A stretch of DNA of 64,000 nucleotides from Cokeromyces recurvatus. Taxonomy: Eukaryota; Mucoromycota; Mucoromycetes; Mucorales; Mucoraceae. Below are positions 23,686 through 52,531 of this stretch, piece after piece; positions within the stretch are counted from its first letter, which is position 1; every line of letters starts with the position of its first letter. Made by a program: the position numbers and the translations under genes. The stretch spans positions 215,001-279,000 of the forward strand of contig NW_026251403.1 of the NCBI RefSeq assembly GCF_025118155.1, written 5' to 3'. Under the pieces are notes generated by a model. It was not told the origin of the DNA. It searched no databases and saw nothing but the letters and a program-made list of their open reading frames with translations.

Positions 23686-25370
23686 TTATGTGCAGGAACC
23701 AATTAGTTTCCAAACACCCCATGGATTATCAGTAGGACGTTCATTTTGAGTCCACCATTGAGCCTTATAGATCTTACCATTATAAGAGACAGTAGTGCCT
23801 CCGGTATAGACAAGACTAGGAGACCATGGAGGATTAGAACTACAATTGGTAGAAGAGGTAGAAGTAGGAGCATTAGAAGATGTAGTCCTTGATATTATTG
23901 TAGTAACAGAAGAAGAGGAGGAGGAAGAGGGAGAAGAAGAAAGGGTAGATGTGATGGGAGTAGGACTAGGATTATTAGAGAGTATAGGAGCAATGGCAGC
24001 AAGAAGTTCACCATTATCTTGTTCAATAGACCAAACGAAAAAACCAGCTAGACCTGTATTAAGTGCATATTGAGTCTTGATTTGAAGAGAGCTAGGATCA
24101 TCATAGGAGATAAAGACCTTTGTACTAGGGTTATATAACCAAGGTGTTTGAGTATGTTTATCAAAATTACGGATCCAAGGGGAAGCGGCAGTAGTAGGAG
24201 AGGAGAGAATACCCTCAGAACGCATGTTAGTCCATCTCCAGACACCAGAAAATGAGGATGATTCCTTTGAACAGTAAGGATTTGTCCAAGGGCCATCCAG
24301 AGAATCACCCTTTGGAGGATTAGAAGCGACTGCAGGATTGTATTGAGTTGTGGGTATATCAGAGACAAGCAAAGTTTGAGAACGACCATAAAAGGGTATA
24401 CCTGCAGCCATCTTGTTATAAGGGACACCAGCGGCTTTCCAACTTTCAATACCTTCTACGAGACCAGCGGGGTAACCCCAACCTGGGGTATTATGTAATG
24501 GAGCATTTGGACCACTTGTCGAGTTCCAGGCACCATTGACATCAAATGTCATGACATGAAAACGATCAACATAAGGGACAAAACCCGAGACATCCGTAAC
24601 TGGTGTAGCGCCACCAAAGGGGGTATTATGAACAGCCATTGTTATCTCCTTGTAGTCATTAGGGAAATTAGAATTCAAAGCCGTACGAAGTTCCTTGATA
24701 AGCGTTTGAAGATTAGCAACATCGTCATTACTGACAGCATTACAACCAGGACCCACCCCATTTGGGTATTCCCAATCAATATCAACACCATCTGTATTGT
24801 ATTTTGTGATAAAATCAATGTTCCATTTAATCCAAGCTGCACGTTTTGATTCAGATGCTGCCATAGGAGAAAATTGAGTCGAACCAGACCAACCACCAAC
24901 ACTAGCCATCACTTTAGTACCTGCAGCATGTGCCAATGAAATGAGTTTAGGAAATCCATATTGAACGTAATCTGTATTTATATAAAAAAAAAAAGAAAAA
25001 AAAAGACATTTAGTTTCTGTGTAAAAGAGACTACTATAGGATCCCTTCTACTTACCATCAAAAACACCACTGTCTTGCCAGGTTGGAGTAGTATCTGTGT
25101 TTTGAACAGCAAAAGCATAATAAACATGAGTATACTTGGAGAAATCAATCTTAGATGGAGTATATCGTCCATAAAGCCAATTCGGAAAGTAACTATATAT
25201 GTATATAATTAAGTTTATTTTTTTTCTTAATTGTGTAGGATAACTTACCCTACTAAAACCTTGTTAGAAGGAGCAGCCCGAGCAGCAAGACCGACAGGTT
25301 TAGCAGATGAAATATCCAACAAACAAAAAGCGGCAGCAGTAATTGAGACTAAGATAGTACTAAGCTTCAT
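23686..25370 (-). CDS. Secreted GH18 chitinase with C-terminal chitin-binding module
   Basis: Three exons join in frame (25370-25249, 25192-25056, 24971-23686) to 514 residues. Residues 1-23 are a signal peptide (MKLSTILVSITAAAFCLL). The GH18 barrel follows, with KVMASVGGWSGS and the catalytic DGVDIDWEYPNG, in which the final Glu is the acid/base. About residues 405-465 are a Ser/Thr-rich, probably O-glycosylated linker. The last 47 residues, WSPSLVYTGGTTVSYNGKIY then WWTQNERPTDNPWGVW, form a CBM5/12-type chitin-binding domain. The enzyme should be exported and hydrolyse chitin in the wall or in prey and substrate. All catalytic residues are present. 206 bp separate its stop from the E2 stop. 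Confidence 0.95.
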
Positions 25371-25725: not shown

Positions 25726-25788
<63 letters not shown>

Positions 25789-29897: not shown

Positions 29898-29954
<57 letters not shown>

Positions 29955-30386: not shown

Positions 30387-31221
30387 ATGACTACACCAAG
30401 CAGAAGATTAGAAGTAATTAAACATCATCTTAATCCAAATGATAAGCCTCACTTTGAAACATGTAAAATCTTAAAAGCATGCTTTAACTAGCAAAAAGAA
30501 AAAGAAAGAAAAAAAAAAGTAACGTTATAATATAGTACACATGAATAGAAAATCAGACGAGGTACCATATGTATCAAAATTAGATCCTTTGAGTTTTCTT
30601 TTACGAAGTGCTATGGTGCATACTCATAAAACAGCCATTATTCATCGAGAACAATCATATAGTTATTTACAATTCTCTGAAAGAGTTAGAGCACTTGCAA
30701 ATGTACTCATTCATACTTTTAACGTTAAACCAGGTGATCGTGTTGGTATTCTTTGTCAGAATATTCCATCTTTTATAGAAGCACAATATGCTGTACCTGC
30801 TATTGGTGCCATAACAGTACCTATGAATACAAAGCTTGCTGCAAAGGAAATAGAGTATGTCAGTGAGCATTCAGGTGTATCGGTACTGATTGTACAGCAG
30901 GAGTTACTAAATAGAGTCACGGAAAAGATCAGATCATCTGTCAAGTTAATTCAGGTAGCTGATTCAAATGATCCTAATACAGATCCTTACGAAATATTAT
31001 TATCAAATACTGATAAACGTTTATCATGGAATGACTTACCAAGATCTCGCGATGAAAATGATCTTATTTCAATTAATTATACATCTGGTTCTACGGGTAA
31101 ACCAAAGGGCGTCATGGTATCCTTTCGTGGAGCCTATATGATGGCACTTGGGATGGCTGTTCATGTAAAACTCGCAGTAGATACTGTCTATTTATGGACT
31201 TTACCCATGTTTCATTGTAAC

Positions 31222-31268
<47 letters not shown>

Positions 31269-32652
31269 TCAATAAATTCATATTTATAATAAGGGGAGAA
31301 GGTTTTTATCCTAAATTTAACTCAACTCATCTATCTATTAATGCTTAAGGATGGGGATTTCCTTGGGCAATCGTAGCTGTAGGAGGAACTCAAGTTATGT
31401 TGAATAAAATAGATTATACACTTATTTGGAAATTATTAAAGAAGCATGGAATTACACATTACAATGGTGCTCCTACCGTTCAAAATGAAATTTGTAACCA
31501 TGAAGATGCTACTCGATTAAATCATCCTGTATATGCTTATAGTGGAGGTTAGAATAGATATATTTATTTATTTTTCAAGTGAAAAAAAACTAAACTAAAC
31601 TATACGGATAGGTTCGGCTTTACCGAGTGTATTAATTAAACGTATGGAAGCCTTGAATCTTATACCTACACAAGTCTATGGACTTACTGAAACTTATGGA
31701 CCTGCAGTCTTTACTTATGATCATCATACTTTATCTGATTACACAGAAGAAGAACAATATAAGCTTTTGGCTAGACCTGGATTTAATATTATTACTTCAG
31801 ATGAAGTTCGAGTTTTGAATGTCAATACTGCTCAAGATGTAAAGCCAAATGGTAAAGAGATTGGTGAGATTTGCTTTACTGGGAATCTTGTGATGAGAGG
31901 ATATTATAAAAATCCTGAAGAAACTAAAAAGGCCTTTAGAAATGGTGTTTACTGGACGGGGGACCTTGCTGTTAGACATCCTGATGGCTCTATTGAAATT
32001 GTAGATCGTAGTAAAGATGTTATTGTTTCTGGTGGTGAAAATATTAGTTCTATAGAAGTTGAAAGTGTAATCCTTGAACTAGATGAAATATCCGAATGGT
32101 AAATGCTCTTTATATATGTATATAAAGTTTTAAAATGATTAACAAAGAAGATAATGATAGCGCTATTGTTGCTGGTCCTGATGATAGATGGGGTGAAAGA
32201 CCAGTTGCCTATATTGTGCTTAAAAAGAATAGAATTTTAGATGCTCGATCAGTTATTAACCATTGTCGAAAGTGTTTAGCAGGTTATAAGGTATATAAAT
32301 AAAACTAAATATTTAATATTATAATCTTATTTAATAATAACAAAAAAAAAATGTAGTGTCCAGACAGAATCATTTTCATTCATGATATTCCCAAAACAAG
32401 GTAAGTAACCTACTATCGTCATTCAAAGATTACGTGTATTGATAGCTTTTATTATATAATACACGCATATATATATGTACATAATAGTACAGGTAAGGTT
32501 TTCTTTTTATTCTTGAGGAGAGGGGGGGGGAAACAAAACTGCCACTCATTCATAAATAAACTAACTAACTGTTTCCATTTTATATAGGAAAAGTACAAAA
32601 GTTCAAATTACGAGAAAGTTTGTGGGCCAATTACAAGAAGAGAGTAAACTAA
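30387..32652 (+). CDS. Acyl-CoA ligase (AMP-binding, ANL superfamily) with a 5-nt micro-exon
   Basis: Eight exons join in frame: 30387-30462, 30536-31222, 31350-31547, 31612-32098, 32161-32290, 32357-32400, 32488-32492 and 32588-32652, giving 563 residues. Motifs in order: P-loop YTSGSTGKPKGVM, FHCNGWGFPW, YGLTETYGP, YWTGDLAVRHPDGS, the hinge DRSKDVIVSGGENISSIEVE and the C-terminal catalytic PKTSTGKVQKFKLRE with its Lys. The 5-base exon TACAG is required to encode the S-T-G of that last motif. The first exon (MTTPSRRLEVIK) is less certain; the safe alternative start is ATG 30541. The family activates carboxylic acids to acyl-CoA via acyl-AMP; the sequence looks like the medium-chain/AAE type. 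There is no PTS1 peroxisomal tail (it ends RVN). Intron 2 begins GT followed by about 43 A. Confidence 0.88.
32488..32492 (+). other. 5-nt micro-exon of the acyl-CoA ligase gene
   Basis: The five bases TACAG are bordered by ATAATAG on the left and GTAAGG on the right. Joined as AG|TACAG|GA they restore S-T-G of the family motif PKTSTGK. Skipping them shifts the frame. Confidence 0.75.
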
Positions 32653-34266: not shown

Positions 34267-36665
34267 TTATTTCTTAAGTGACTTGAGTTTACCCTCTATC
34301 AACATGTGTGCTGACTGAGGAGCAAACTTTTTAATAGCGGCAATCAATTCAGGGAATCTTAAGGGCTTGGTAACATATTCATCCTAGAATGGTATTTTAT
34401 AAATATAAAAGTTAGTACGTACATAGACATATATACTTCTTTATATTATTTACCATGCCAGCTTGTAGACATTTTTCTCTATCTCCAATCATAGCATGTG
34501 CTGTTAATGCAATAATAGGTATATGCGAATTGTTCAAATTCCTTTCAATTTCACGAATCTTTTGTGTCGCTTCAAAACCTCCCATAACAGGCATTTGTAC
34601 ATCCATCAAGATTAAATCAAAATTTTGCGATTCATACGCTTCTACAGCTAATTTACCATTAGCTACTACTTTAACATGATGTCCAAACTTTTCCAAAATT
34701 CGAACTGCAAGTTTTTGGTTAACATCATTATCTTCTGCTAATAAAATTTCTAAAGGTACTGATTTAGAGGCATCACTAGGAAGTGCTGCATGACTTTCTA
34801 AAGCAGGAAGAAGAACGGCAACTATGTCTGCAAGGTTAGCCGGTGTGTTAATATAACCTGTAATGCCCAAATCAATGCAAAGTTTCATATTTAAAAGATG
34901 AACTTCTGGAGCAATAAGAACAATAGGTGTATAACGAAGTGGGATAATTTCTCTAATTTTTTCTGCTAATGTCATTTTATCAATGATAACTGTATCAAAG
35001 AAAGGTGCATGTTTAATCTTGCTAGAATTGGCATTCGCAACTCTTGCTGCCTCTTCAATATTACTAACACGATAAGGCTTCAATCCAAGCGATGTTACTT
35101 TATTCAAGACCTCTGTCTGATCATTCATAGTATCTAAAAACAAAACTCTTCTATTACGGAATTGACGTATCTTATCAAAAACTTCTTTTTGCTGAAGATC
35201 ATATCTAAGAAGATTGACTGTGAAATAGAATTCAGATCCTTTTCCATATTTTGACTCAACCCATAAATCACCACCCATTAGCTGTACAAGGTGTCTAGAG
35301 ATAGATAAACCTAATCCAGTACCACCATATTCTCGACTACCATATCATATCATATTTAAAATAATAAATAAATAAATATAAAGTATATAGTATTTAACTA
35401 AACTTACGTAGTGCTTCCATCTGCTTGACAAAAAGTATCAAATATAACATTCAATTTATCCTCTTGGATGCCAATACCAGTATCACTTACACAAAACTCT
35501 AATGTAACAGTATTATCTTCCATACGAACAGCTCGTGTACGAAGAACAACCTCGCCTTGTGTAGTAAATTTCACTGCATTGCCAATCAAATTTGTAATGA
35601 CTTGTCGTAAACGAAGTGGATCACCGATTAATTGATCCGGAATAAGCTGATCAACATGGTATATGAGGTCAAGCTTTTTCTGATTCGCTTTTACTGCTAA
35701 TGTCTTCAGAACACTAAAGACAGCGGAGCGTAATGAGAAAGGAATGGATTCAATTGTCATTCGACCCGCTTCAATCTTTGAAATATCCAAAATATCATCT
35801 ATGATCGTTAGCAAACTATTTGCTAAACTAGAAACAATCATCAAATTCTCTCTTTGTTGTCTATTCAACTCAGTTTCAAGTGTAAGCGATGTCATACCAA
35901 TAATACCGTTCATAGGGGTTCGAATTTCATGACTCATATTAGCTAGAAATTCGCTCTTGGATCTATTCGCTAATTCAGCAGCTTCTCGAGCCAATCTATT
36001 CTTTTGAATAGCATCGCGAAGAGAGCCAACCATTTGATTAATTTTGGTTTTTAAAGAATCCATTTCACCAGAAGCTTCAACTGTGATGAGACGAGAAAAG
36101 TCATTTTCAGTAGCAGCAGCAGAAATTTGAGCAAACGCACGCACTTGGGTGGTTAAATTAGAAGCCATTGTATTGACATTACTTGTAATATCACGCCATA
36201 AGCCTTCAATATCCTTAACTTGAGCTTGGACTCCTAATTTACCTTCAGTACCTACTTCTTTAGCTACGCGTGTGACTTCAGAGGCAAATGAGCTTAATTG
36301 GTCTACCATCGTATTAATTGTATTTTTCAATTCAGCAATTTCACCGTGGACTTCAACTTCAATTTTTTTGCTAAGATCACCTTGTGCTACAGCTTTACAA
36401 ACTGCAGCAATAGCTCTAAGCTGATCAGTCAGGTTGCTTGCCATAAGATTTACATTATCTGTTAGATCTTTCCAAGTACCATCAACACCAACAATTGTCG
36501 CTTGACCACCAAGTATACCTTCAGTACCAACTTCTCGAGCAACTCGAGTAACCTCTGCAGCGAACACACGTAATTGATCCACCATATCATTTACAGTTTC
36601 CCTAATAGTAATAATAATAATAATAATGATTAGAAAAAATAAATAAACAGGAGATATACATAGAT

Positions 36666-36726
<61 letters not shown>

Positions 36727-39700
36727 AATTCTCGAATTTCACCGCGAGTTTCAACATCAATCTTCTTTGATAAATCACCACTCGCTACAGCCTTTGTAAC
36801 CACAGCAATTGAACGTACTTGGGTAGTAAGATTTGAAGCCATTGTGTTCACATTATCAGTTAAATCTTTCCAAGTACCTGCAACCCCTCGAACATGAGCT
36901 TGACCACCTAAGGCTCCCTCTGTGCCAACTTCACGAGCCACTCTTGTTACCTCAGATGAAAATTCACGAAGTTGATCTACCATTGAGTTCACTGTAATCT
37001 TCAAATCCAAAATCTCGCCCCGAGTTTCAACGTGAATCTTCTTTGATAAATCACCACTTGCTACAGCTTTAGTAACTTCAGCAATCGACCGTACTTGAGT
37101 TGTAAGATTTGCAGCCATTGTATTTACATTATCAGTAAGATCCATCCAAGTACCGGCAACATTAGGAACACGAGCTTGTCCACCTAATTTACCTTCTGTA
37201 CCGACTTCTTTCGAGACACGTGTAACTTCAGAAGCAAAAATGCGAAGTTGATCCACCATGTCATTTACAATATCCTTAAGTTCAAGAATTTCGCCTCCAG
37301 ACTCAACTTCAATTTTTTTCGATAAATCACCAAGAGCTACTGCTTTAGTCACTTCTGCAATGGAACGTACTTGTGTAGTTAAATTAGCAGCCATAATATT
37401 TACATTATCCGTTAAATCCATCCAAGTACCAGCGACGCCTTCCACTATGGCCTGACCACCTAATTTACCTTCTGTTCCTACTTCCTTAGCTACTCTTGTT
37501 ACTTCAGAAGCAAAAATACGAAGTTGATCCACCATAGAATTGACAATATTTTTAAGATCCAGTATCTCACCGCCTGACTCAACTTCGATCTTTTTAGATA
37601 GATCACCTAGAGCTACTGCTTTAGTAACTTCTGCAATGGAACGTACTTGGTTTGTTAAATTAGTAGCCATCGTGTTTACATTATCCGTCAAGTCCTTCCA
37701 GGTACCATCCACATTCGGAACGCGAGCTTGTCCTCCAAGTTTACCATCTGTACCTACTTCTCTAGCCACTCTGGTAACCTCAGAGGCAAATACCCTTAGT
37801 TGATCCACCATTGAATTTACAATATTCTTAAGATCTAATATTTCACCACGAGTTTCCACTTCAATTTTTTTAGATAGATCACCACTTGCGACTGCTTTAG
37901 TGACCTCGGCAATTGAACGTACTTGAGTTGTAAGGTTTGCAGCCATGATGTTTACATTATCAGTTAATTCATTCCAGGTTCCTGCTACGCCTTGGACTAC
38001 AGCCTGGCCACCCAACTTACCCTCTGTACCTACTTCTTTTGAGACGCGAGTTACCTCAGAGGCAAATATACGTAATTGGTCCACCATGTTATTCACTATA
38101 TTTTTAAGATCCAGTATCTCACCACCTGACTCGACTTCAATCTTTTTAGATAGATCACCTAGAGCTACGGCCTTTGTTACCTCTGCAATAGATCTTACTT
38201 GGTTTGTTAAATTGGCAGCCATGATATTGACATTATCGGTTAGTTCATACCACGTACCAGCGACATTAGGAACCATAGCCTGGCCACCTAGTTTGCCTTC
38301 TGTACCTACTTCCTTAGAGACACGAGTTACTTCAGCAGCAAAAATACGAAGTTGATCCACCATGCCATTAACTGTATCCTTTAAATCTAAAATTTCACCA
38401 CCAGATTCAACTTCAATTTTTTTCGATAAGTCACCAAGAGCTACTGCTTTAGTCACTTCTGCAATAGAACGCACTTGTGTAGTCAGATTAGCAGCCATAG
38501 TATTGACATTATCTGTTAGGTCCAGCCAAGTGCCTGCAACCCCCTCTACAGTAGCCTGTCCTCCTAATTTACCTTCTGTACCGACTTCTTTGGCGACTCG
38601 TGTGACTTCAGAGGCAAATACTCTCAGCTGATCCACCATTTCATTGACCGTATTTTTAAGATCTAGTATCTCACCACGAGTTTCCACTTCTATTTTTTTA
38701 GATAGGTCACCACTCGCGACTGCTTTAGTAACTTCAGCAATCGAACGTACTTGAGTTGTAAGATTAGCAGCCATTGTATTGACGTTATCTGTCAAATCCA
38801 TCCAAGTGCCTGCTACTCCTTGAACAATAGCTTGACCACCTAATTTTCCTTCAGTACCGACTTCACGAGCTACTCTTGTTACTTCAGAAGAAAATTCACG
38901 AAGTTGATCCACCATAGAATTGACAATATTTTTAAGATCCAGTATCTCACCGCCTGACTCAACTTCAATCTTTTTAGATAGATCACCTAGAGCTACAGCC
39001 TTTGTTACCTCTGCAATAGATCTTACTTGGTTTGTTAAATTAGTAGCCATCGTGTTTACATTATCCGTCAAGTCCTTCCAGGTACCATCCACATTCGGAA
39101 CGCGAGCTTGGCCACCTAGTTTACCATCTGTACCTACCTCTCTGGCCACTCTGGTGACCTCAGAGGCGAATACTCTTAGCTGATCCACCATGTCATTGAC
39201 AGTATTTTTAAGATCTAATATTTCACCACGAGTTTCCACTTCAATTTTTTTGGATAGATCACCACTTGCGACTGCTTTAGTGACCTCGGCAATTGAACGT
39301 ACTTGAGTTGTAAGGTTTGCAGCCATGATATTTACATTATCGGTCAATTCGTACCAAGTACCAGCTACATTAGGTACACTAGCTTGACCACCCAACTTAC
39401 CGTCTGTGCCAACTTCTTTTGAGACACGTGTAACTTCAGAAGCAAATATACGTAATTGGTCCACCATACCATTTACAATATCCTTAAGTTCAAGGATTTC
39501 ACCCCCTGACTCAACTTCAATCTTTTTAGATAGATCGCCTAGAGCTACGGCCTTTGTCACCTCCGCAATTGAGCGTACCTGAGATGTTAAATTGGCGGCC
39601 ATGATGTTGACATTATTTGTGAGTTCGTACCACGTACCAGCGACATTAGGAACCATGGCTTGACCACCCAGTTTACCTTCCGTACCTACCTCCTTAGAGA

Positions 39701-42700
39701 CACGAGTCACTTCAGAGGCGAATATACGTAACTGGTCCACCATGTTATTGACAATATTTTTAAGTTCGAGGATTTCGCCACCAGACTCAACCTCAATTTT
39801 CTTTGATAAATCACCTAGGGCTACAGATTTAGTGACTTCTGCTATTGATCTTACTTGGTTGGTGAGATTAGCAGCCATAATGTTTACATTATCTGTCAAG
39901 TGTTTCCAAGTACCTGCTACGCCTTGGACTACAGCTTGCCCACCTAATTTACCCTCTGTACCTACTTCTTTTGAGACGCGAGTTACCTCAGAGGCAAAGA
40001 CACGCAACTGATCCACCATGTTGTTCACTATATTTTTAAGATCTAGTATCTCACCACCTGACTCAACTTCAATCTTTTTAGATAGATCACCTAGAGCCAC
40101 GGCCTTTGTCACTTCTGCAATAGATCTTACTTGGTTTGTTAAATTAGTAGCCATATGATTGACGTTATCCGTCAGGTCCTTCCAGGTACCATCCACATTC
40201 GGAACTTGCGCTTGACCACCTAATTTACCGTCTGTACCGACTTCCTTGGCTACCCTAGTTACTTCTGCTGCGAAAACGTTTAGTTGATCCACCATGCTAT
40301 TGACTGTGTTTTTAAGATCTAAAATTTCGCCCTGTGTTTCGACGTCTATTTTCTTGGAGAGATCACCTTTGGCTACGGCCTTAGTCACTTCAGCAATCGA
40401 TCTTACTTGAGTAGTTAAATTAGCTGCCATCGTATTTACATTATCCGTCAAATCCTTCCAAGTACCACTCACACTTGGTACGATTGCTTCGCCACCTAAT
40501 TTGCCCTCTGTTCCGACTTCTCGAGCAACACGGGTGACTTCTGAAGCAAACACTCGCAATTGATCCACCATGTTATTTACTGTATCCTTTAGATCTGATA
40601 TTTCACCACTTACATCCACTTGAATCTTTTTAGAAAGATCACCGTTGGCAACAGCCTTAGTGACGACAGCAATGGAACGTACCTGAGTAGTCAAGTTTGT
40701 TGCCATCGTGTTTACATTATCTGTCAAGTCCTTCCAGGTACCATCCACATTGGGAACTTGCGCTTGTCCTCCAAGTTTACCATCTGTACCCACTTCTCTA
40801 GCCACCCTGGTGACCTCAGAGGCAAATACCCTTAGCTGATCCACCATGTCATTGACGGTATTCTTAAGATCTAATATTTCACCACGAGTTTCTACTTCAA
40901 TTTTCTTAGATAGATCACCTTTAGCAACTGCCTTTGTCACTTCAGCAATTGAACGTACTTGAGTTGTAAGATTAGCAGCCATAGTATTGACATTATCTGT
41001 AAGGTCTTTCCATGTCCCACCAACGTCCTTAACAACAGCTTGACCTCCTAGTTTTCCTTCTACACCTACTTCTAATGAAACACGCCGCACTTCTGCTGAG
41101 AAAAGAATCAACTGATCCACCTACAAAAAAAAAAAAATTAAGATATACAAGGGGATGGCTCTTTATATATTTTTATATATACATATTTATATATATGACT
41201 TACCATTTTGTTCATTGTATTTTTCAATTCCAAAACTTCGCCTTGAGCATTTGCTTTCACTTTTTTAGATAGATCACCACGAGCAACAGCTTTAGCAACA
41301 ACCGCAATATCTCTAACTTGATTTGTAATTTTTAAAGCCATCATGTTTACATTATCTGTTAAATCCTTCCAAGTACCACCCACATCTTTGACAACGGCTT
41401 GACCACCCAAGATACCTTCTGTACCTACCTCTAATGAAACTCTTGTGACCTCTGTAGCGAAGATAGATAATTGATCGACCATGGTATTAATCGTATTTTT
41501 TAAATCAAGCATTTCACCTTTTACCTCTACAGTGACTTTTTTAGTTAAATCACCACGAGCCACTGATTTTGAAACTTGAGCAATATCTCTGACTTGATTT
41601 GTTAAATTAGCAGCCATTGTATTGACATTATCCGTTAATTCTTTCCAAATTCCATCAGCACCTTGTACTTTAGCTTGAGCACCTAGTTTTCCCTCCGTAC
41701 CTACTTCGTGAGCCACTCTTGAAACTTCAGAAGCAAATAAATTCAATTGATTGACTTTATATAAGTATATGTATATGTATATACAAAAATAGATATAAGA
41801 TATATGTTTGTTATTATATTATAGATCTTTTTTTTTTTTGTTACCCATCGTATTAAATGTATTTTTAAGAACCAAAGTTTCACCTTTAACAGGTACAGTC
41901 ATAGCCTTACTGAGATCACCACGAGCAATAGCAGTAGAAACATCAGCGATATCTCTAACTTGTTCAAGATGATTCCTTGTCATACTATTCAGATTTACAA
42001 CAAAATCATGCCAAAGACCTTTCATTTCTTTAACACAACGAGCTTGAACACCTAACTTACCATTTACAGCTGTTTCATGAGCGACAAAATTAACTTCATC
42101 CGTTACAAGTTGAAGACGATCGGCCATTGCGTTAACAGCGTTCTTGAGGGTGTTGATAGGGGCATTAAGTTCAAGTTGTGAACCGGGTATGACACAACGC
42201 TCATGTTCGCAAGTAATACGACGACCGAGGTCTCCGTTAAAGACACCAGAAGCTACTTTAACAGCCTGAATAACACAATCAGGACAAACAATATTATCTG
42301 AACTTGTTGCATTTGTAAAATAAACAGGATAAGCTGTAGCTGTTGATGAAATATTGAAAGGTGGGGTAGAAAGAACAGAAGAGTTAGAACCTGCTACTGC
42401 AGCAGGAGTTGATGATGTTGAAGATGAATTGACGTTATCAGCTAACAATTAGAAAATAAATAAATAAATATATATATACATATATATATTTATATAAAAA
42501 GACGAAAAGATATATTTGTCAATAAATATATAGTTTATTAAAATAAAATGTACTTTGCAATTTACCAAAATAACCAGTTGGTGTTTCCGGTTGTAATTGA
42601 CGATAAGAATTTTCTAATTTTTCTAATAAAGAAGAGTCATGAATAGTAGTTAAATTATCTTCATCCGAAGTTATGGTATGATTAGAAGAATGACGATTAT

Positions 42701-43085
42701 TTGTATGAGATGTTTCCTCGTGATCATGTGCGGTTAATAATTGATGCTGTTGTTGGATCATAATTCGGCTTCTTAAATTTTCAGTCTCTAACTGTAGCTG
42801 ACGTTGTGCAATTTTTTTAAGCATCAGGTCTATTGAAGATAATTTTTCAGAGTCCTGTTTTGATAATTTGTCACCAAGTTTCGAAGTGTCTATAGAATTA
42901 GATAAACAGTGATCAATATCACCTTGTTCGAGATTATGTACAAGATCGTGAATATAAGAAAGTAAGCTCATGTTAGATTTAAGTTTAGCAGATGATTGAG
43001 TAATTGACGACGAAAATTCTTCTGAATTATCACGAATTTTCTTTTTTATAAGTGGTGAATTATCTCCTGCACAAGAACGTTTCAT
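34267..43085 (-). CDS. NIK1: Giant group III hybrid histidine kinase (Nik1/Os-1 type) with 22 HAMP-type units
   Basis: Seven exons join in frame (43085-42566, 42441-41845, 41754-41204, 41120-36724, 36601-35408, 35336-34454, 34383-34267) to about 2,752 residues; Nik1/Os-1 proteins normally have about 1,100-1,300. Residues 1-230 are polar with a possible coiled coil. From about 240 to 2,210 there are 22 units of about 92 residues carrying GDLSKKI-type cores: 2 in exon 2, 2 in exon 3, 16 in exon 4 and 2 in exon 5. HisKA follows with [12 protein letters not shown] (phospho-His about 2246), then the ATPase boxes [16 protein letters not shown] and [10 protein letters not shown]. The receiver domain has [19 protein letters not shown] (phospho-Asp) and EYVTKPL. 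No membrane segment. The family senses osmotic stress and phenylpyrrole/dicarboximide action upstream of the HOG pathway. Confidence 0.93.
36724..41754 (-). repeat. 276-bp tandem HAMP repeat array inside the kinase gene
   Basis: The long fourth exon is 16 tandem units of 276 bp (92 codons). Two unit classes alternate: [15 protein letters not shown] preceded by AVAL, and [15 protein letters not shown] preceded by AVAS. The DNA at 37501 and at 38881 is nearly identical, exactly 1,380 bp (5 units) apart, showing that blocks of five units were duplicated. Units near the exon ends are more diverged, and the exon 3 units (41204-41754) belong to an older set. Confidence 0.9.
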
Positions 43086-51558: not shown

Positions 51559-52531
51559 AAATACACACACACACACACACACAATTATATGACTAATTCT
51601 CTAATTATAATGACAATAGCAACAAGCTGCTGCTGAAGTTTGGAAAACTAAAAATAACCTGAGAGGTGCTAATGGCGCATTAGTTAGGGCTCCTTTATTA
51701 GGTATCCTTAAATTTTGGGATGGTACTACTGTGATTGAAAATACGACAGAATGCTGTCGTGTTACCCATCCTGATCCACGTTGTATGATATCATGTGTTA
51801 TAGTTTCTACTTTAATAGCAAGGTATTTACAAGTAATATGAAGCAGTTATACATACATACATAATTCATTCAAAAAGCTTTTTTTTTATTTTATTTTATT
51901 TTATTTTTTTCTTTTATTTTATTTTATATTTTAAAAAATTGACAGATTATTAAGAGGACAAGATCTTGAATTAGAAATAAAAAATCAACCACCGACAGTG
52001 AGGAATAAAAATCACCAGCTTCTTATTGACAGCAATGACAAACAAAACGGTTGTTTTATAGATTCACTCTCAGTGAATGATCGACTTCAAGCACTAGTTA
52101 AAAATGTCATAGAGACTAATAAATCAATGCTTATTTCTCCTCATTCAGATCCTTTATTTATAACTCCAGAAACGAATTTAGATCAAATGCAAAACTATTA
52201 TTATCAACTTGTAGATTATTGCGTACCTCGTTCTTTAAGCGAATTAGACCTTGATAATAGCGAAAATGATCGGAATACATTTAAATGTCTAAGCGCCGCC
52301 TTATATTGTTTAACACGAGAGGTACCTCCTGAATCTGAAACGGAATATTTTAAAAGAATGTTAATGGATATCGTGATGCAAGGAGGTGAAGCTGATACAA
52401 ATGCTGCTACTGCAGGTGCTTTATTAGGTGCACGTTTTGGTTATAGTCAATTGCCTACTGAATGGGTAGTTGGTTTGAAACGATGGGAATGGCTTGAAGA
52501 TAGAGTAGATGAATTTTGCGCTTTACTTTAA
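50939..52531 (+). CDS. ADP-ribosylglycohydrolase-family protein (DraG/ARH-like)
   Basis: Five exons join in frame (50939-51011, 51082-51235, 51305-51506, 51620-51822, 51946-52531) to 405 residues. Family motifs are GLIFGAILGDSLGLATEG, then DFGDDAEQVLLV, CCRVTHPDPRCMIS and GGEADTNAATAGALLGARFG near the C-terminus, which is the usual order. Enzymes of this family remove ADP-ribose from proteins or small molecules using two Mg2+ ions. Two ligand motifs deviate: the usual T-D-D-T is G-D-D-A here, and the usual G-D-A-D-T-N is G-E-A-D-T-N. So activity may be altered. Intron 3 holds a T-run/A-run junction followed by a (CA)n repeat. It is cytosolic by default, with no targeting signal seen. Confidence 0.85.

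Follow-up and report, generated by a model that had tools for sequence, protein, structure and literature searches.

A 22-repeat HAMP-type array in a probable group III histidine kinase gene of Cokeromyces recurvatus

The group III (Nik1/Os-1-type) hybrid histidine kinases of fungi carry N-terminal tandem HAMP-type repeats. Five to six such repeats have been described in the fungal proteins that have been studied (PMC3418262, PMC3848655), with a repeat number that varies across species (PMC5159414). The locus in question lies in a 64,000-nucleotide stretch of the genome of the Mucorales fungus Cokeromyces recurvatus (RefSeq assembly GCF_025118155.1, contig NW_026251403.1, positions 215,001 to 279,000), referred to below as the window and numbered from its first letter. 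An initial annotation, made from the letters of the window, gave 22 HAMP-type units to a minus-strand gene at 43085-34267. This raises the question of whether so long an array can belong to an intact kinase of the family, how it could have arisen, and what its length might mean. We assign a probability of roughly 80% to the reading that the gene encodes a Nik1/Os-1-type hybrid histidine kinase whose relay grew as entire 92-residue repeats were duplicated in frame between conserved ends.

The rebuilt gene model joins seven exons in frame into a coding sequence of 8,259 nucleotides (2,752 residues plus a stop) with no internal stop, and all six introns begin with GT and end with AG; the seven exons, 2,752 codons and uninterrupted array of the initial annotation were thus recovered. 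Its count of 22 units was reproduced as well. The motif count places 22 repeats between residues 243 and 2188, and the Pfam HAMP profile (PF00672) independently marks 20 stretches, missing the diverged unit 1 and one of the two units in exon 5. The spacing between units is exactly 92 residues in 20 of the 21 intervals, the first interval being 13 residues longer (105). A hidden Markov model of the unit finds 22 copies in this gene and 21 in the paralogue described below, counts that are circular because the model was built from the fungal units themselves. The whole array spans 36034..42301 on the minus strand (introns included), corresponding to residues 221-2211 or 72% of the protein.

The overall architecture is that of the Dikarya group III kinases (Nik1, Os-1, Bos1, TcsC and Hik1), in which N-terminal tandem 92-residue HAMP repeats are accompanied by HisKA, HATPase_c and a C-terminal receiver. 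HisKA, HATPase_c and Response_reg each score over the Pfam cut-off in the window gene, which bears out the proposal of a Nik1-like hybrid kinase with complete kinase and receiver parts. The H, N, G1, F and G2 boxes and the receiver motifs are also present by pattern match; these patterns were written partly from the window sequence itself, so that the Pfam matches are the independent evidence. The H-box pattern matches at residue 2244, in an exon in which HisKA scores over its Pfam cut-off, and this H-box sequence may be of the group III type.

The protein differs from its Dikarya counterparts in repeat number, with 22 repeats (21 in the paralogue) against five to seven (PMC5159414), a described range that we do not treat as defining group III and outside which the window gene falls. 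The initial estimate, some four times the usual number, is in line with this range and with the five to six repeats noted above. Early-diverging fungi are also described as having group III kinases (PMC5285503). No report of a fungal HAMP array exceeding seven repeats was found in the titles and abstract openings of a literature search that covered few subscription journals.

The window gene has a counterpart of similar size. In a scan of the genome (28.05 Mb in 64 contigs), Pfam HAMP matches numbered 39, a lower bound, of which 20 fall in the window gene and 19 at a single locus on another contig, C3. This paralogue (C3:486076 to 477569) has six exons, 2,653 residues, the same motifs, and 21 repeats spaced at 92 residues in all 20 intervals. 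In its N-terminal exon (C3:486076-485482) there is a long stretch of glutamines with no counterpart in the window gene.

The repeats in the middle of both arrays appear old and constrained. Among the 16 middle units of the window gene, DNA identity is 67-92%, the median proportion of synonymous differences (pS) is 0.70, which is near saturation, and the median proportion of nonsynonymous differences (pN) is 0.11. The median ratio of nonsynonymous to synonymous change (dN/dS) is 0.070 in the window gene (94 of 120 middle-unit pairs scored) and 0.078 in the paralogue (70 of 105), the unscored pairs being either saturated or too close; no scored pair in either gene reaches a dN/dS of 1. Because the repeats are old and diverged, unchanged in length and low in dN/dS, the middle of the array is, as judged from these comparisons, maintained by strong purifying selection. 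The open frame, the complete domains and a dN/dS near 0.07 are all consistent with the earlier suggestion that the gene looks functional. By sequence criteria, the window gene is a real, intact and extreme variant of a known kinase family.

Comparison with bacteria puts the length in a different light. The two repeats of exon 3 were used as the query in a scan of 84,980 species genomes, which returned 320 related stretches. The following counts apply to the 80 best of these, a biased sample. The bacterial loci are 68-73% identical to the query over two repeats and share its 92-residue period, while repeat pairs of the window gene itself are 65-69% identical to exon 3. Counted with the unit model mentioned above, 49 of the 80 loci have ten units, and the range is 4 to 17; 74 of the 80 open reading frames are complete and six are cut at an end. 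The H-box pattern occurs in 56 of the 60 bacterial frames listed. Scans by phylum with a one-repeat query (E <=1e-20), in which counts are lower bounds taken per genome rather than per gene and phylum labels are those of the scan-centre contigs, found matches in 14 of 199 genomes of Planctomycetota (maximum 16 in one genome), 17 of 199 of Acidobacteriota (maximum 14) and 14 of 188 of Myxococcota (maximum 15). The myxobacterial proteins AskA, AskB and Amb07 are known members of this set of bacterial poly-HAMP kinases related to group III, for which extended poly-HAMP regions have been described (PMC7643160).

Long arrays are therefore common among these bacterial relatives, as far as their sequences indicate, and it is the five to seven repeats of Dikarya that are short by comparison. 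The initial claim of unusual length accordingly stands with respect to the studied fungi, but not for long arrays as such, since most of the 80 bacterial loci contain 10 repeats and the longest contains 17. Even so, the 21 and 22 repeats of the two fungal genes surpass every array in the bacterial loci and genomes scanned, and the fungal core units differ from the bacterial ones in forming a clade of their own (see below). A 1,759-residue frame of Deltaproteobacteria bacterium RBG_13_43_22 has about 14 repeats, and the H-box pattern was not found in it; the array may have a different output, or the frame may be broken. In a Myxococcales bin (G004:C147:8502-11534), a poly-HAMP array has its open frame split by one TAG within a repeat.

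The relationships among the repeats give some indication of how the array grew. A protein tree was made from 41 units of the two genes (A, window gene; B, paralogue), each gene's first unit being excluded. One-to-one pairs between the genes are A2-B2, A3-B3, A4-B4, A5-B5, A19-B19, A21-B20 and A22-B21, and so they lie mostly at the ends. Many of the middle repeats multiplied within one gene: groups confined to a single gene (A8-A12-A17, A10-A11-A15, A13-A20, B6 to B11, and B12-B13-B15-B17-B18) hold 19 of the 31 middle units, and four others pair across the genes (A5-B5 and A19-B19). In a second tree, to which units from three of the 80 bacterial loci were added and from which the first two fungal units were omitted, all 31 middle units of the fungal genes together with A21 and B20 formed one clade (support 93/84, in a tree whose bootstrap had not settled), and A3-B3 grouped with a bacterial unit. 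The simplest history suggested by these trees is a fungal ancestor that had some core units between conserved ends, followed by more duplication in each gene. Repeat DNA identity in the window gene also peaks at a spacing of five units, as block duplication would give; only one of 2000 shuffles of the unit order gave as high a peak. In the paralogue, two pairs of units are recent copies, with DNA identities of 98% (B13/B18) and 95% (B6/B9). These recent copies and the one-gene groups lend indirect support to the idea, raised by the initial annotation, of a length-variable tuner. A changed signal gain or a changed osmotic or fungicide response, also proposed there, would be other conceivable effects of the length.

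The same observations could be explained without any role for length. Unequal exchange would add repeats in frame, selection would remove only the broken ones, and a 22-repeat kinase would work like one with five. The recent copies in the paralogue and the five-unit signal in the window gene fit such a process, and so does the spread of 4 to 17 units among the bacterial arrays. On the other hand, both fungal genes are similarly large and most of their repeats arose long ago (median pS about 0.70), which suggests that length may be kept, with two genes being too few for a test. A nearly neutral repeat number is a possibility to be taken seriously, if one somewhat short of even odds. Like the structural alternative considered next, it concerns the role of the length and is compatible with the family assignment.

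The number of HAMP folds may be larger than the number of repeats. The repeats of group III kinases have been described as concatenated HAMP pairs, with nine HAMPs in the five repeats of CaNik1p (PMC3848655). By the same pair rule, the window protein would have about 43 HAMPs and the paralogue 41. The 22 HAMP-type units of the initial annotation are thus correct as repeats, but each would be a pair. Close relatives of the array have been solved: the chain titled 'histidine kinase,Gcn4p' in PDB 9trk matches the two repeats of exon 3 with an E value of 9.7e-97 and exon 4 with 9.1e-82. These structures (9trk and 9trj), which were compared by chain title and sequence alignment, differ from the array in being short constructs. 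Concatenated soluble HAMPs are also found in Aer2 of Pseudomonas aeruginosa, a weak match (3vol, E 6.8e-4); unlike the kinases considered here, Aer2 is a chemoreceptor, and its HAMPs number three plus two (PMC3570549).

From known HAMP structures, two chains would be expected to pair in parallel and form a continuous HAMP rod ending on the kinase helices. Predicted helices of up to 33 residues suggest some 2.5 nm per HAMP, so that the rod could be roughly 100 nm (0.1 micrometre) long. If the window protein behaves like the studied Nik1 proteins, stress would alter the packing of the rod and the kinase would switch between phosphorylating and dephosphorylating a downstream phosphotransfer protein, the output of which would feed the high-osmolarity glycerol (HOG) mitogen-activated protein kinase path (pathway of Nik1-type kinases: PMC3848655, PMC5159414, PMC6433957). 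Control of this path through Ypd1 and a role in the phenylpyrrole response are typical of group III, and the single Hpt match in the genome (see below) would be a candidate for the phosphotransfer protein. The dimeric rod, the direction of signalling and the partners are all inferred by analogy.

Such a rod need not carry a signal along its whole length. The array could serve chiefly as a spacer or scaffold, in which case a rod about 0.1 micrometre long would determine the position or the binding of the kinase, with the signal carried only by the conserved end repeats. Supported one-to-one pairing between the two genes is confined to the end units plus A5-B5 and A19-B19, and the remainder resemble interchangeable copies. 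In addition, the 31 middle units of both genes share the same residue in 56 of the 92 columns, as a uniform rod would show, and a structural model of low confidence predicts helices of 29-33 residues separated by short connectors. However, the repeat pairs of the window gene have kept 65-69% identity to exon 3, and the bacterial repeats 68-73%, which argues that the array has not degraded to a plain coiled coil. A spacer of this kind appears rather unlikely on balance.

At the other extreme, rods of about 43 and 41 HAMP folds could act over their full length of roughly 100 nm as a long-range relay or as a mechanical gauge that responds, for instance, to crowding or to shrinkage of the cell, with length raised within each gene and held by selection. 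This proposal is speculative and quite improbable; if true, it would make the array the longest HAMP relay found in these searches, one in which nature tests the distance over which a HAMP switch can transmit a signal.

An assembly artefact or a decaying gene is extremely improbable: tandem arrays are prone to mis-assembly, but the longest exact repeats in the coding sequences are 87 base pairs (window gene) and 158 base pairs (paralogue) and so within ordinary read reach, middle-unit DNA identity in the window gene is 67-92%, dN/dS is about 0.07 without any stop or frameshift, and the second locus lies on another contig. A pseudogene is ruled out by the dN/dS and the open frame.

Several results weigh against the interpretation of the gene as a family member with a relay extended by whole-repeat duplication, or at least against parts of it. 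Eight of the 31 middle units are left unresolved by the protein tree. Across the complete tree of units, 11 changes of gene label are needed compared to a mean of 13.9 for shuffled labels, and 41 of 500 shuffles were as low. The nucleotide tree joins A11 with A16 instead of A10 and A15, and A3 and B3 are not paired in it. The five-unit signal is unclear in the paralogue, where 129 of 2000 shuffles were as high. As for structure, profile comparison of the second half of the repeat with HAMP gave a score of 11.4 (column shuffles: mean 9.3, maximum 19.7), which is not significant. Pairwise alignment of half-repeats was not significant either, as nine of 36 units exceeded the 95% level of the null and 1304 of 5000 shuffles were as high as the consensus. 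The assignment of two HAMPs per repeat is based on PMC3848655. The AlphaFold monomer model of the two repeats of exon 3 (alignment input: 15 window rows plus 28 of the 80 bacterial loci) is poor, with a mean predicted local distance difference test (pLDDT) score of 51; this is the model that gave the helices above, which alternate as expected, and the poor score may simply reflect that a single chain of a dimer was folded. A Foldseek search with it produced no informative match (best E 1.9).

The repeat numbers of the two genes are over double that of the most frequent bacterial form sampled (10 repeats) and three to four times those of the studied fungi, and both paralogues appear to be under strong selection. 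They offer a natural length series for analyzing signal transmission along HAMP chains and the reason for the presence of several HAMPs in group III kinases. Models drawn from five-repeat proteins, such as the fixed roles assigned to HAMP4 and HAMP5 in DhNik1 (PMC5159414), would not be transferable unit by unit to kinases with 21 or 22 repeats.

The exons of the window gene (all on the minus strand) divide the protein unevenly. Exon 1 (42566..43085) encodes the N-terminal region and matches no Pfam family. Exon 2 (41845..42441) contains the diverged unit 1 and unit 2, with one Pfam HAMP stretch, and exon 3 (41204..41754) contains units 3 and 4, with two stretches and with units 3 and 4 of the paralogue as respective partners. 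The expanded core is exon 4 (36724..41120), in which 4,397 nucleotides encode units 5-20 and hold 16 Pfam HAMP stretches; the program TRF reports it as a tandem repeat of period 276 and 15.7 copies. Exon 5 (35408..36601) includes units 21 and 22, with one Pfam HAMP stretch, followed by HisKA with its H-box (35764..35961, Pfam profile match) and the start of HATPase_c. The end of HATPase_c and then the C-terminal receiver are in exon 6 (34454..35336); the stretch between them is presumably the degenerate receiver usual in the family. Exon 7 (34267..34383) completes the receiver with its VTKPL motif and the stop.

At E <=0.001, 17 Pfam families match exon 4, with HTH_6 and SpoIIID above their own cut-offs and other helical families among them. 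A DNA-binding array is considered unlikely, since only HAMP and HAMP_2 have a single stretch that passes alone; the HTH_6 and SpoIIID hits are taken as weak matches summed over 16 similar repeats. Similar HTH_6-like and SpoIIID-like matches have been described over the HAMPs of the myxobacterial kinases AskA and AskB (PMC7643160).

A short working kinase could not arise by skipping of exon 4: because 4,397 is not a multiple of three, the predicted product is frameshifted and stops at residue 561, so this isoform is ruled out. Skipping of exon 2 alone, or of the HisKA-bearing exon 5 alone, is predicted to keep the frame. Intron 4 (36602..36723, minus strand), which is absent from the paralogue, consists of 122 nucleotides: GT, a run of 51 A residues and about 70 further bases. 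Its retention is predicted to introduce a stop at residue 2023, directly after the unit-20 motif and before the kinase, and could therefore yield an array-only chain of 2,022 residues without kinase.

Near the N terminus, KKIR (residues 15-18, exon 1) fits the monopartite nuclear-localisation consensus discussed for the nuclear targeting of Dikarya TcsC (PMC11253588), and KKSK at residue 10 of the paralogue fits it as well. The likeness to TcsC is weak, and so is the case for either motif as a putative localisation signal, because the pattern recurs at one other place in the window protein and at three others in the paralogue.

Genome-wide, there are eight HisKA matches and one Hpt match; the latter spans three stops and so probably includes introns. 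Elsewhere in the window, a GH18 chitinase with a CBM_5_12 module lies at 23689-25047 (minus strand), and its first fungal-labelled PDB match, 5xwf (Rhizomucor miehei), ranks third. An FKBP exon has its best PDB match in 6vct, which we take to be a protein from Mucor. An AMP-binding enzyme at 30523-32099 (plus strand) is split over at least two open frames, and the C-terminal part of an ADP-ribosylglycohydrolase family protein is found at 51935-52528 (plus strand). The window also contains several pure runs of A or T of 30-54 bases, for example at 25729-25782, 29902-29952 and 31225-31266.

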